Shown here in pieces: positions 16,522-39,379 of a stretch of 53,467 bases of DNA. This stretch comes from Lentilactobacillus dabitei (lineage in GTDB: Bacteria; Bacillota; Bacilli; Lactobacillales; Lactobacillaceae): contig NZ_JAHPPD010000006.1 of assembly GCF_019061365.1 (NCBI RefSeq), forward strand, positions 1 through 53,467, written 5' to 3'. The notes under the pieces were generated by a model. It had not been told where the DNA came from, searched no databases, and was given only the letters and a program-made list of their open reading frames with translations. Within the stretch, counting starts at the first letter, position 1, and each line of letters opens with the position of its first letter. The position numbers and the translations under genes were made by a program.

Positions 16522-17064
16522 ATGAAAATCAGAGAAATTGTTCAAACGGCACTGATTACTGCAACCATTATTATTTTGGGAATGATCCCACCGTTACCAC
16601 TTGGTTTCATTCCGGTTCCAATTGTGATGCAGAATTTGGGAATCATGTTAGCAGCCGTGATTTTAGGACCCAAAAAAGGAACCCTGGCGATTTTCGGGTT
16701 CCTCTTGCTGGCGTTGATTGGTTTTCCAGTGCTCAGTGGTGGTCAGGCAGGGCCTGCAGTTTTTGCCGGACCAACTGGCGGCTATTTGCTCGGGTGGTTA
16801 TTAACGCCACTCATGATCGGCTATGGTCTTTCCCGGCCATTTATTAACCGTCGTTGGAGTCGATTAAGTATTATCTGGTTCGCCGGCGTCTTATTGGTCG
16901 ATGTTATCGGCTCAGTCTGGTTATGGCTGGTCAGCCCGATTTCATTGATTGGGTCACTCGTGTCAAATTTGGCATTTATTCCGGCGGATACATTGAAAGC
17001 AGTGGCTGTTTATTTGGTGGCCGGGAGAATGCGGATTTGGAATAAAGAAACCACTCGTTTATAA
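16522..17064 (+). CDS. bioY: Biotin transporter substrate-binding subunit BioY
   Basis: Hydrophobic 180-residue S-component of an ECF-type biotin transporter, with about five to six membrane helices. The family features GFIPVPIVMQNLGIMLA near the N-terminus and GPTGGYLLGW in the middle are present. No ECF ATPase genes are near, so it would use the shared ECF module. Biotin supply fits the neighbouring birA and acc genes. Confidence 0.92.
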   Translation: MKIREIVQTALITATIIILGMIPPLPLGFIPVPIVMQNLGIMLAAVILGPKKGTLAIFGFLLLALIGFPVLSGGQAGPAVFAGPTGGYLLGWLLTPLMIGYGLSRPFINRRWSRLSIIWFAGVLLVDVIGSVWLWLVSPISLIGSLVSNLAFIPADTLKAVAVYLVAGRMRIWNKETTRL

Positions 17065-17083
17065 GAATACAAAAATTGATAGT

Positions 17084-17158
17084 GTCCGACAGATAAGGCT
17101 CATCATTCGAAATTCGAGAATTTGAATTTCGGATGATGGGCCTTATCTAGTAACGGAC
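17084..17158. terminator. Long hairpin between convergent genes, possible two-way terminator
   Basis: Nested pairing: GTCCG with CGGAC, GATAAGGC (17092-17099) with GCCTTATC (17140-17147), CATCAT with ATGATG, CGAAATTC (17108-17115) with GAATTTCG (17124-17131). It lies between bioY (rightward) and the next leftward gene. Neither side has a clear T run, so termination is inferred from position and stem length. Confidence 0.5.
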
Positions 17159-17228
17159 GATTTTAAAGTGGCTTTATTCAGAATTTCAAGGGAACTGAGA
17201 AGTCGCTTGATTGTTGACGAGGTTGAAT

Positions 17229-35631: not shown

Positions 35632-36042
35632 ATGAAAAAAGTAATTACGTATGGAACGTTTGATTTGCTTCACAAGGGTCACGTTCGTTTATTAAAACGT
35701 GCTAAGGCACTTGGTGACCACCTCACCGTTTGCTTGTCATCAGATGAATTCAACGCTGAAAAAGGTAAGAAAGCATACACGTCATACGAAGATCGAAAAT
35801 ACATCCTGGAAGCAATCAAGTATGTTGATGAAGTGATTCCTGAAACCAACTGGGATCAAAAAATTCACGATGTCCAAGATCGTGATATTGACATTTTTGT
35901 TATGGGTGACGATTGGAAGGGAAAGTTTGACTTCCTAAAGGATTACTGTGAAGTTGTTTATTTGCCAAGAACAGAAGGCATCTCAACCACAAAGATCAAA
36001 GAAGACTTAGGCCTTACGGATACCAAAGACTGGCAAGCTTAA
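35632..36042 (+). CDS. tagD: Glycerol-3-phosphate cytidylyltransferase
   Basis: Makes CDP-glycerol, the donor for poly(glycerol phosphate) wall teichoic acid. 136 residues: YGTFDLLHKGHVRLL with the HxGH nucleotide-binding motif and RTEGISTTKIK near the C-terminus. The TagF-like polymerase that would use the product is at 37358. Shine-Dalgarno GTAGGAG. Confidence 0.95.
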   Translation: MKKVITYGTFDLLHKGHVRLLKRAKALGDHLTVCLSSDEFNAEKGKKAYTSYEDRKYILEAIKYVDEVIPETNWDQKIHDVQDRDIDIFVMGDDWKGKFDFLKDYCEVVYLPRTEGISTTKIKEDLGLTDTKDWQA

Positions 36043-36061
36043 TTTAAATGACTTATGACGA

Positions 36062-36104
36062 GGCTGTTAACAAAACGATGTGTTTTGTACCAGCCCCATT
36101 TTAT
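36062..36104 (+). terminator. Terminator after tagD
   Basis: GGCTG (36062-36066) with CAGCC (36091-36095) and CAAAAC (36071-36076) with GTTTTG (36082-36087), then CCATTTTATT. It leaves only a few bases before the tandem element array, so the array is either read through from tagD or uses a promoter I cannot see. Confidence 0.65.
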
Positions 36105-36117
36105 TATGAGGGTAATT

Positions 36118-36241
36118 AGGACAGCTGCTCCAGGCAGAAGTCTGCAGGTAAGCACCTCAAACAAAAATTCCCCAAACCGGAATTTCCGTTCGAGGAGACT
36201 TACGCTCCGACTTCTAACCGCCTGGATCCGCTCACTTTATT
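36118..36241 (+). repeat. Tandem element, copy 1
   Basis: P1 36130-36135 with 36220-36225; P2 36136-36142 with 36209-36215; P3 36148-36152 with 36199-36203; P4 36155-36162 with 36188-36195 (one mismatch); P5 36165-36171 with 36179-36185. Unpaired AACC at 36216-36219. Confidence 0.8.
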
Positions 36242-36358
36242 AGGATAGCTCCGTAAAGCAAAAACTTCCACCTAAGCACCTTTTACAAAAGTCCCAGGAC
36301 CGGGGCCTTCTGAAAAAGGAGACTTAGGTTCCAGTTTCTAACCTGCGCTCACTTTATT
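36242..36358 (+). repeat. Tandem element, copy 2
   Basis: P2 36262-36266 with 36333-36337; P3 36271-36276 with 36323-36328; P4 36279-36284 with 36314-36319; P5 about 36287-36295 with 36302-36309 (one mismatch and one G-U). P1 is reduced to a GC pair set. Unpaired AACC at 36340-36343. The most diverged copy. Confidence 0.75.
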
Positions 36359-36480
36359 AGGACAGCTGCACAAAGCAGGGATCTGCAGGTAAGCACCTCA
36401 GAGAAAAATTCCAAGACCCGGAATTTCTCTCTGAGGAGACTTACCTTCCAATCCCTAACCGCTTTGTTCCGCTCACTTAT
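36359..36480 (+). repeat. Tandem element, copy 3
   Basis: P1 36371-36376 with 36461-36466; P2 36377-36382 with 36451-36456; P3 36388-36393 with 36440-36445; P4 36396-36404 with 36428-36436; P5 36405-36412 with 36420-36426. Unpaired AACC at 36457-36460. The most perfectly paired copy, and the one next to the ribosome site at 36486-36491. Confidence 0.8.
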
Positions 36481-36496: not shown

Positions 36497-37345
36497 ATGC
36501 AACGAGCAATTTTTTTGGTCAGGTCAATTCAAGGTATCAGAAAGACAACGTTCCGAAGCCGTTTGATGGCCTTGGCCAACAGTAATTACCAAGTTGTTGT
36601 GTTACTTGCAATGACGAATTTTGATGAAATCTGGCAAGCCAAGCGCGAATTTGAATTGATCAAATTGCCGGCTGAGACGCAGAACATCAGGTTGATTAAT
36701 TTGGCTGATATTTATGCAGATCATGACGGGATTGCGTTGACTAATGACGATTATTTAACACCAGACCTCACCCAATTGAAGAGTTATGAGTCGCACGCCG
36801 GTAAGTTGCCGGTGACCCGCTTTGTGGGGGCCGATGGTAATATTGTAGCTGAAACCTTATTTGGTGAGGATTCAACCAGACTACATACAATTTTGTTTGA
36901 TAAAAACAGCCGCATTGTTCAGATTAATAATTATGATAGCGCTGATAAACTCTTTGGGATTGAAAAGTATACCAATAATTCATTGGATGAAAGTTTATTG
37001 TTGAATGCCAAGGGACAATTAGTCTTTAGATTTACCAACTATTTGCAACCACAAAAAACGACGTATGATCTCACGGATTCATCAGTGATTCCGCTGCCAG
37101 CTGAGTTAACGGCGCTTCCAGGCCAAAAAGACGATGACATGTTGAAAAGCTACGAAGCCCAGGGAGTGTCAACAATTACCAAAGCTGTTTCGTACACGAA
37201 TTATCGCCGTTACGATGATATCAATGCATTCTACCATCAAGTGCTGCTTAACATGGACCTTGAAAATGCACAAACATACGTCGACATTGATCACCTGGTT
37301 GAAGCTGCCAAATATTTGCCGGGTAAACGAATCTTTAACTATTAA
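36497..37345 (+). CDS. TagE-type glycosyltransferase N-terminal module without catalytic domain
   Basis: 282 residues, ATG after AGGAGG. The first 25 residues (FLVRSIQGIRKTTFRSRLMA) and the beta-hairpin-like middle (RFVGADGNIVAETLFG, LLLNAKGQLVFRFTNY) resemble the N-terminal half of TagE/GtfA-type poly(glycerol phosphate) glucosyltransferases, which are about 500 residues and carry a GT4 domain afterwards. No GT4 motif (E-x7-E, GxGP) is present here, and the following sequence encodes a different protein. It may be a stand-alone accessory subunit or a truncated enzyme. Downstream of the tandem RNA-like array. Confidence 0.55.
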   Translation: MQRAIFLVRSIQGIRKTTFRSRLMALANSNYQVVVLLAMTNFDEIWQAKREFELIKLPAETQNIRLINLADIYADHDGIALTNDDYLTPDLTQLKSYESHAGKLPVTRFVGADGNIVAETLFGEDSTRLHTILFDKNSRIVQINNYDSADKLFGIEKYTNNSLDESLLLNAKGQLVFRFTNYLQPQKTTYDLTDSSVIPLPAELTALPGQKDDDMLKSYEAQGVSTITKAVSYTNYRRYDDINAFYHQVLLNMDLENAQTYVDIDHLVEAAKYLPGKRIFNY

Positions 37346-37357
37346 GGGGACATAAAA

Positions 37358-39379
37358 TTGCGAGCGATACTTTCCGGAGTTCATCAAAAAAAGGGACTTC
37401 AAGTTTTAGAATTTGAATTACTGGATGTGACCGGCTCTTTGGAGCAGGCCTATATGTTATTTGTTGAAAAGAACAGTTTGGCCTCCATCATGAAGCCGAT
37501 CACTAAGGTTCTCAATCATAATATTGTCCGGGTTAATATTGATGCCCAGGACTTTCATTTTGACATGGCCGACCAAACTGAATTTGAATGGCAAATTTTT
37601 ATGGTCAACAATGGCATCGATCATACCAATGTGATTCAAGTTGAAAGTGAATATTTGAGTGATCGTCACCAGTTGGAACTGACCAGTTACTATCAATTCA
37701 ACAGCGATGCGCAAGGGATGGCACTGTTTAACATTCGGACTCACCAGTCTGATGAAGATTTCATGATTAACTCGGTTAACTTGACGGATACTGACCTGGA
37801 GTTGACGGGTTACAACAAGATTAATGGAATCAAGATTAAGAACCAACGGATTATTTTGAGAAACCAAACCAATAACGGCAAATTGGAATATCCGGTTTCT
37901 AAAAAGATGTTCCAAGGGATGTTCACCGTCTCGATTCCGCTCACAGATATTCCTCAGAATTCAGTGGGCGAATTGTATATCAAATACAATCTTGAGGGCA
38001 ACGAGATTACTCAAAGATTGATCATTTCGAAATCACTGAGTGGCCAGTCCACCATTGCCCAATTACCTGGTAACCGGATGATCACCTTAGAGAAACGGTT
38101 TGATAACGGTATTTTGGTTAAAGAATTTCTTGGTGCATCCTTGCTGCAAAAGATTAGCGCTGCCGGTGGCAAGGCCCATGGTATCATCGATGTCATCCGA
38201 ATGGTTCAAGATAAATTAAATCTTGCCCGAATGCGGTTCTTATTTAGATCAGGCCATTCGCCATACGAAAATACGACAATTATTTTTGAAAGTTTTGGCG
38301 GCCGGCAAGTGAGTGACAGTCCGTATGCAATCTATAAAGTGTTTAAGACACTTTATCCCGGGATAAATATGATCTGGTCGATTGACCGCTCACAGAAATC
38401 ATTCTGTAAACAAAACGGAATTGCTTACGTGGTTCGCCGGACTAACAAGTGGGTACGAATACTTGAAAAGTCTCAATTCTGGATCAGTAATGCCCGGTTC
38501 CCAACTTGGGTCAAGAAGCCAAACTATGTCACTTATATTCAAACTTGGCACGGGACACCATTGAAGAAGTTGGGGCTGGATATCGAAAATGTTTCGATGC
38601 CAGGAACAACAACCGCGAAATATCATAAGAATTTTGTCAGGGAAGCTAATCGTTGGGATGCTTTAGTATCACCTAACGATTACTCGACTCAAATTTTCCG
38701 GTCGGCCTTTGGTTTTAACAACCAAATTTTGAAGATTGGGTATCCTCGAAACGATGAATTAATTAATACAAATCCCGATGAGATTGTCGCAATCAAAGAA
38801 CAACTTGGAATCCCGCTGGACAAAAAGGTTGTGATGTATGCGCCAACTTATCGAGACAATCAATTTGCTGAGAAGGGCAAGTATACATTTGAACTCCCAT
38901 TTGATTTGGACGATTTCCGTAAATCATTTGGGGATGATACGGTCTTGATTTTGAGAATGCACTATTTGATTTCGAACGCTTTAGACATTTCGAATTATTC
39001 TGATTTTGTGTATGACTTCTCAAATTATCCAAACATCAGTGACTTGTATTTGGTATCAGACCTATTAATTACTGATTACTCTTCGGTGTTCTTCGATTAT
39101 GCCTATTTGAAGCGGCCAATCCTATTCTATCCATACGATTACCACTTGTATAAGGAGGAACTTCGCGGATTTTACCTCAACTACGAAAAGGATTTACCCG
39201 GTAAGATTGCTGGAAATTCAAAAGAATTGTTAGCAGAAATTAATCATGCTTTGGCGCATCCAGATATGAGTGCCAACCAAAAATTCATGAACTTCTATAA
39301 TCGTTTCTGTGCAATTAACGATGGTTTAAGTTCACTGAAAGTGGTTAATTATGTGATGCACCAAATCGAAAGTGTCTAG
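37358..39379 (+). CDS. CDP-glycerol glycerophosphotransferase (TagF-like)
   Basis: 673 residues, start TTG after AAGGGG. The N-terminal about 290 residues are beta-rich and not recognised. The C-terminal part is a CDP-glycerol glycerophosphotransferase domain: TWHGTPLKKLG (about 396), APTYRD (about 494) and ITDYSSVFFDYA (about 570). It would add glycerol phosphate units from the CDP-glycerol made by TagD to a lipid-linked primer at the inner membrane face. Polymerase (TagF) versus primase (TagB) is not certain. The start is 12 bp after the preceding gene, so the two are co-translated. Confidence 0.88.
   Translation: MRAILSGVHQKKGLQVLEFELLDVTGSLEQAYMLFVEKNSLASIMKPITKVLNHNIVRVNIDAQDFHFDMADQTEFEWQIFMVNNGIDHTNVIQVESEYLSDRHQLELTSYYQFNSDAQGMALFNIRTHQSDEDFMINSVNLTDTDLELTGYNKINGIKIKNQRIILRNQTNNGKLEYPVSKKMFQGMFTVSIPLTDIPQNSVGELYIKYNLEGNEITQRLIISKSLSGQSTIAQLPGNRMITLEKRFDNGILVKEFLGASLLQKISAAGGKAHGIIDVIRMVQDKLNLARMRFLFRSGHSPYENTTIIFESFGGRQVSDSPYAIYKVFKTLYPGINMIWSIDRSQKSFCKQNGIAYVVRRTNKWVRILEKSQFWISNARFPTWVKKPNYVTYIQTWHGTPLKKLGLDIENVSMPGTTTAKYHKNFVREANRWDALVSPNDYSTQIFRSAFGFNNQILKIGYPRNDELINTNPDEIVAIKEQLGIPLDKKVVMYAPTYRDNQFAEKGKYTFELPFDLDDFRKSFGDDTVLILRMHYLISNALDISNYSDFVYDFSNYPNISDLYLVSDLLITDYSSVFFDYAYLKRPILFYPYDYHLYKEELRGFYLNYEKDLPGKIAGNSKELLAEINHALAHPDMSANQKFMNFYNRFCAINDGLSSLKVVNYVMHQIESV

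Follow-up and report, generated by a model that had tools for sequence, protein, structure and literature searches.

Three tandem hairpin units beside a wall-gene locus of Lentilactobacillus dabitei are probably copies of an interspersed repeat of Lactobacillaceae

Introduction

Three consecutive hairpin-like sequences between wall-related genes of Lentilactobacillus dabitei raise the question of whether they form the regulatory leader of the downstream gene or an element of another kind. The window considered here is a stretch of 53,467 nucleotides (NCBI RefSeq assembly GCF_019061365.1, contig NZ_JAHPPD010000006.1, positions 1 to 53,467), for which an earlier note had described three tandem units that share one plan, vary by paired changes in their stems and were not recognised as a named family, with a ligand sensor for a wall precursor, a protein-binding leader or translation control as candidate roles. 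On balance, the units are likely to be copies of a mobile-looking REP/BOX-like interspersed repeat of Lactobacillaceae that is kept in untranslated regions.

The array and its locus

The window array comprises three units of one plan whose starts lie 124 and 117 nt apart (Table 1), each of which is predicted to fold into a single extended, bulged hairpin about 122 nt in length. The tandem arrangement is thus as the earlier note had it, and the last unit indeed ends beside the ribosome site that precedes the gene at 36497, with an offset of 18 nt between array and start codon. Wall-gene neighbours are found in the TagD-like gene and the glycerophosphotransferase gene; this description does not extend to the abutted gene, which has no Pfam match. 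Unit 2 lacks seven bases after CTAACC, which constitute the 3' strand of P1. The inverted repeat and T-rich stretch that precede the array are also present in array-free relatives (e.g. G018 and G003), and a terminator scan listed nothing between the tagD stop and the array. A promoter scan gave one minus-strand match, which is no more than in shuffles. Elsewhere in the window, positions 17059-17180 carry a weak match to the repeat model R1 (E=0.013), a hairpin between convergent genes that is perhaps a terminator and was excluded from the counts.

Table 1. Features of the array and its surroundings, in window positions
Feature	Position	Strand	Remarks
TagD-like cytidylyltransferase gene, upstream of array	35632..36042	+	PF01467
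tagD stop to array	36043..36115	.	inverted repeat, then T-rich DNA (read by eye)
Unit 1	36116..36237	- (likelier folding strand; R1 match on +)	R1 139.1 bits
Unit 2	36240..36354	-	R1 94.8 bits; 7-base gap in alignment
Unit 3	36357..36478	-	R1 142 bits; + strand 3' end (GCTCACT) towards downstream gene
18-nt spacer, array to start codon	36479..36496	+	T-rich, then ribosome site AGGAGG
Downstream gene, abutted by array	36497..37345	+	ORF; no Pfam match
CDP-glycerol glycerophosphotransferase	37358-39379		PF04464

Fold and covariation

Folded as RNA, unit 1 reaches -61.2 kcal/mol on the minus strand (z -6.9) and -46 kcal/mol on the plus strand (z -5.7), unit 2 has z-scores of -2.8 (minus) and -1.5 (plus), and unit 3 attains -8.2 on both strands. 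The plus-strand z-scores were obtained against 200 dinucleotide shuffles, none of which folded as well as units 1 and 3, while 14 of the 200 did as well as unit 2. For the 105 full units of the window's own genome, RNAalifold returns a fold with many double changes, and in a set of 78 units double changes occur in 23 of 28 pairs. The pair count was extended to 47 hand-chosen units from several genera (16 from the own genome and 31 of 70 from farther away), which contain 408 double-changed cells against a shuffled mean of 128 and have a covariation score of 0.516 against 0.159, neither value being reached in 500 shuffles; the structure is at an advantage in this count, having been derived by aligning units of this kind, and kinship among sequences can beat shuffles even without structure. 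Two cruder measures are weaker, namely the number of pairs with a double change (30 against 26.6 shuffled; 2/500) and the number of further pair types (78 against 73.3; 22/500). When the pairing partner is shifted by 1-3 columns, most of the covariation in these 47 units is lost.

The data support the window units as a structured element with real covariation, and the paired change that had been read from the three stems recurs strongly in the family. For P1, this change is seen between units 1 and 3, since unit 2 lacks the seven P1 bases. The units reach the gathering threshold of no Rfam family, in keeping with the earlier impression that no named family was at hand: a search of the whole window with Rfam 15 found one tRNA, outside the array, and the array region gave five sub-threshold matches at E up to 10, all to miRNA or lncRNA families. 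Six further array loci yielded two T-boxes, both outside the units; these T-box leaders (L177 1081-1327 and L189 1292-1538) are above the Rfam threshold and close to arrays.

Distribution across genomes

A DNA search with the window array found 61 matches in the window's own genome, where units stand beside unrelated genes at dozens of loci; 35 of these loci together with the window gave 134 matches, 127 of which score above 40 bits and make up 53 arrays. Model R1, generated from 78 hand-chosen units (68 from the own genome and 10 from relatives), detects units in 17 of the 24 genus genomes (one of them with a single match) and in 57 of 201 genomes and 17 of 40 genera of the family. A sample of 246 genomes from across the order contains 13 with matches at E up to 1e-4, five of which belong to other families; all these counts include the own genome. 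There are at least 149 R1 units in the own genome and at least 149 matches in each of G000, G004, G013 and G016. Unit length is about 122 nt in the own-genome set (105 of 134 matches used as full units) and in the sets g12 (42 of 60 matches) and g37 (69 of 83 matches). Arrays contain one to seven units (n=150 arrays), and neighbouring units in the scanned arrays mostly run head to tail at a spacing of about 115-135 nt; close neighbours on opposite strands were seen once (L178).

An exact 16-base junction pattern retrieved 54 stretches, 20 of which come from array-carrying L. kisonensis and L. fungorum; the remaining 34 are scattered over unrelated organisms and were taken as chance. Nine plasmid records of Lactiplantibacillus, Lentilactobacillus and Secundilactobacillus also match, seven of them from Lactiplantibacillus plantarum. 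Prophage carriage was considered and discarded, since a search of the phage collection with the window array gave no match with E up to 0.01. One unit (near 1501-1619 of loci L154-L159) is located between genes that, named by eye, encode a CopY-like repressor and a copper ATPase, and the copper operon that carries it is shared by six genomes from five genera, with an identity of about 96-99% along some 2.5 kb; in G317, which belongs to another family, a match has the same score as this copper-operon unit. Among the titles and beginnings of abstracts listed from the openly licensed literature, a description of the repeat was not found, and lactobacilli of many genera apparently carry an undescribed repeat. 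If this is right, the repeat would bear on the annotation of untranslated regions, on mRNA ends and on genome assembly in food and gut bacteria.

Filled and empty sites

The earlier note had named a lack of such units before wall genes elsewhere as a refutation of its reading; units are present at the tagD locus in three of the 23 other genomes of the genus. Altogether, an array adjoins the tagD-like gene in four of 24 genomes, with three, three (one partial), one and one units, and is missing there in 20, in three of which the neighbour gene was also not found. Filled and empty sites differ between species. Three pairs are clear (L104/L041, L099/L046 and L031/L077) and place the array a few bases before a ribosome site, while the alignment of the other pairs of the same comparison is less clear. 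In two cases with an array at a stop codon, the last codons and the position of the stop are unchanged between filled and empty sites, and the array begins at once or about 2 nt later. Copies at different loci differ in as few as 2 of 120 positions. At L041 near 1915, several species have an array where a purA-like gene ends (3' end), apparently an old site; sites shared in this way also fit a retained function.

MITEs are marked by terminal inverted repeats and target-site duplications; in the repeat, the foot of the hairpin pairs, and reading the few empty sites by eye brought no target duplication to notice. No transposase or recombinase could be tied to the repeat. Matches to Y1_Tnp (PF01797) occur in seven of 24 genus genomes and are absent from G004 and G013 (at least 149 units each) and G006 (67 units), and the Y1 transposase of REP systems is therefore unlikely to be a general partner. 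An autonomous partner gene at the 3' ends of arrays was also sought by clustering the proteins that face these ends in 110 of 150 arrays; the 15 multi-member groups included, by eye, no transposase-like candidate, and this idea was abandoned. Fragments of Y1 transposases were observed at the very start of contigs (L142 and L146, i.e. G000 C216 and C166, and G000 C213), which suggests an IS copy that collapsed in the assembly of G000.

Placement at gene edges

Among 150 arrays, the plus-strand 3' end lies 14-26 nt before a start codon in 66 and at the stop codon of an opposite-strand gene, from -6 to +8 nt, in 43, with 41 in neither position. For the 129 arrays with a left-hand ORF, 101 fall into these windows, against 16.9 expected from uniform positions in the gap and a maximum of 31 in 100,000 simulations; gene calls came from a simple ORF script, the pattern was first noticed in the own genome, and the exact windows were fixed after all arrays had been seen. 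In a second fetch, made after the pattern had been noticed, 29 of 47 arrays lie inside the windows (counted by hand). Loci from outside the own genome are best-scoring matches and were not drawn at random, and arrays at orthologous sites do not count as independent.

Own-genome arrays often keep within narrow limits of the next gene at their 3' end, and the distance at the 5' end is free. With slightly wider windows, the own genome has 22 start, 20 stop and 11 neither arrays (n=53), g37 has 29 stop, 1 start and 17 neither, and g12 has 15 start, 1 stop and 13 neither. The independent annotation of plasmid NZ_CP035116.1 agrees with this picture, as the match there starts directly behind one gene and stops 22 bases short of the start of the next. 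Many stop-class arrays (e.g. L181 2428 and L049 117) have a shared 5' flank that resembles TTATATNGCC or TATATGGA and directly precedes the first unit, which was not seen at start-class arrays, both by eye; this flank could be a promoter, a target or a part of the element. Array neighbours in the own and other genomes include genes that, judged by eye, resemble those for ribosomal protein L9, ArgG, PurA, PurB, ATP synthase beta and copper ATPases. If the placement rule is right, the repeat tends to mark the borders of reading frames, which raises the question of what brings a hairpin to within a few bases of ribosome sites and stop codons, and via which strand.

The folded strand

Covariation by itself does not name the strand that folds; counts of A.C against G.T cells can help, as A.C cells of the plus strand are G.U when read on the minus strand. 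In columns that are paired in the folds of both strands, plus-strand A.C exceeds G.T in all three unit sets (own 110:41, g12 51:22, g37 127:18), and standard pairs are more frequent on the minus than on the plus strand (97.6 vs 95.8% in own, 96.6 vs 94.9% in g12 and 96.7 vs 92.5% in g37). In well-paired plus-strand columns, G.T is not commoner than A.C, with the sole exception of g12 (12 vs 9). Stems of tRNAs from the window's genome served as control and contain 24 GU and 3 AC cells (30 of 38 tRNA matches fetched, 31 of 32 distinct tRNAs used), after a filter for at least 80% standard pairs at stem positions that lowers the A.C count. Among varying columns, the plus:minus lean is 6:16 in own (p=0.052), 6:6 in g12 and 5:21 in g37 (p=0.0025), or 17:43 of 60 when pooled (p=0.001). 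The repeat's folded strand is probably the minus strand, with varying columns clear in g37 only, borderline in own and tied in g12; the plus strand, on which the earlier note had drawn its fold, is the less supported one. Pure Watson-Crick pairing of DNA, suggested by the low G.T count, was dropped as an explanation once the A.C cells were read as G.U on the minus strand.

The raw gain in folding energy of the minus over the plus strand is about 12 kcal/mol, and DNA parameters favour the minus strand too, by 5-6 kcal/mol. Shuffles of the three window units show 58-80% of the minus-strand gain, which is mostly composition, and the gain was therefore dropped as proof of strand. The energy advantage, mostly a matter of composition, appears under DNA parameters as well and thus does not separate RNA from single-stranded DNA as the folded molecule.

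Interpretation

It is proposed that the repeat spreads through genomes. Its copies occur in untranslated DNA and in many cases adjoin an open reading frame, with the plus-strand 3' end immediately ahead of a Shine-Dalgarno site or immediately behind the stop codon of a gene on the opposite strand. The pairing is probably maintained by selection on a single folded strand, for which the minus strand is the better candidate, in the form of either RNA or single-stranded DNA. At the stop position, the folded strand would be part of the 3' untranslated region of an mRNA, and the hairpins could influence either the lifetime of the mRNA or the ribosomes. At the start position, as in the window, the mRNA of the abutted gene would carry the complement of the folded strand, and the window array is for this reason more likely a tolerated insertion than a sensor.

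A possible but distinctly less probable reading is that the hairpin matters as DNA only, as a strand-specific single-stranded substrate or a protein-bound cruciform, with copies decaying neutrally after insertion. Single-stranded DNA hairpins are substrates in other systems, among them the REP hairpins for TnpA_REP and folded attC sites. The large number of copies, their dispersal, the tandem arrays and the species-specific sites favour this reading, as do the preference of DNA energy parameters for the minus strand and the differences among near-identical copies (19 pairs with 1-4 differences each), which are one-sided in 26 cases and two-sided in 2. It is, however, weakened by the lack of Y1_Tnp in several element-rich genomes and by recent mismatches in g37, most of which are minus-strand G.U, as fits ongoing selection at least in the g37 genus. 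Relative to nearest neighbours, new mismatches there are minus:plus G.U in a ratio of 23:2 (stop class) and 14:1 (neither class), while the ratios are 5:12 (start), 4:2 (neither) and 1:0 (stop) in g12 and 9:6 (start) and 2:1 (stop) in the own genome.

The same mismatches bear on the rather unlikely alternative of a selected mRNA element, in which copies in 3' untranslated regions protect mRNA or stall terminating ribosomes, copies at start codons belong to leaders of the other strand, and mobility is secondary. Placement at stop codons or ribosome sites speaks for it, together with the ratio of plus-strand to minus-strand G.U, which is 7:32 in g37 stop-class units and 13:7 in g12 start-class units (Fisher p=0.0005); the comparison of all stop with all start units gives p=0.009. 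However, the own genome has no clear class difference (7:19 vs 25:44, p=0.47), presence is species-specific and neighbour genes are of all sorts. The g37 stop units have 7 G.T and 32 A.C cells among about 1408 pair cells, and their unpaired sites show C>T at 13 of about 308 and A>G at 9 of about 396, with denominators counted by hand and gaps ignored; G>A has no baseline, as no conserved unpaired site is G. Because C>T and A>G do occur at unpaired sites, the shortage of plus-strand G.U in g37 is not simply a matter of mutation. The g37 pattern agrees with selection that acts on 3' untranslated regions in their sense strand, and is not clear in the own genome.

Less probable again is a family-wide mobile structured RNA of Lactobacillaceae that would copy itself via its own folded minus strand and, on insertion, place its 5' end at the borders of translated regions, as a bacterial equivalent of a SINE that targets translation boundaries.

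Finally, a cis-regulatory leader RNA of wall genes, whether ligand sensor, protein-binding leader or translation control, is very improbable: the last unit ending at a ribosome site, the wall-related neighbours and the conserved unpaired positions suit it, but the same unit stands beside unrelated genes in the window's and other genomes, it is missing at the tagD locus in most of the genus, it also lies in the opposite orientation at stop codons, in nearly as many own-genome arrays as at start codons, and pairing is less good on the plus strand. A wall-gene riboswitch was rejected because of dispersal and placement, the features of that type (one pathway, sense orientation upstream) being replaced by unrelated genes and two orientations. 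A ligand sensor at this locus is also unlikely because the better-supported fold is antisense to the gene at 36497, the promoter scan is at shuffle level and the neighbours of the repeat are unrelated.

Comparison with known repeat systems

As far as the accounts outlined here describe them, the BOX element of Streptococcus pneumoniae is nearest in kind to the repeat, followed by REP/BIME and then by other stem-loop families. BOX is a small interspersed repeat with predicted stem-loops and tandem modules in varying number; it differs in part from strain to strain and has an orientation-dependent effect on neighbours (PMC3049150). The stem-loop character, small size, interspersed occurrence and variable number of tandem modules are shared, whereas BOX consists of boxA and boxC that enclose a varying number of boxB modules (PMC3049150) and the lactobacillar repeat of a single 122-nt unit type. 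Modular ends of the boxA/boxC kind were not found, as 105 full own-genome units align over their whole length as one type; shorter or weaker matches were left out of this alignment, and stop-class arrays do share a short 5' flank. The host family also differs, and the placement rule was not found in the portions of the BOX account at hand (PMC3049150).

REP sequences are described as 20-40 bp long, most with a GTAG or CGTC tag, and as alternating in orientation within BIMEs (PMC2817692, PMC3733652, PMC8266576). Both systems exceed 100 copies per genome and have palindromes that lie outside genes and composite arrays; in contrast to the 20-40 bp, alternating REP/BIME, the lactobacillar repeat is 122 nt long and runs head to tail, and where REP/BIME are described with RAYT (TnpA_REP) transposases, several repeat-rich genomes have no Y1 transposase. 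Identity with REP/RAYT systems was discarded because of unit size, orientation and the absence of Y1_Tnp from several repeat-rich genomes.

Bcr1 and other stem-loop repeat families of Firmicutes (PMC2267715) share the stem-loop fold and the phylum. In that survey, as outlined, L. johnsonii is the sole lactobacillar genome, and its Lac-1 is a family located inside coding genes (PMC2267715).
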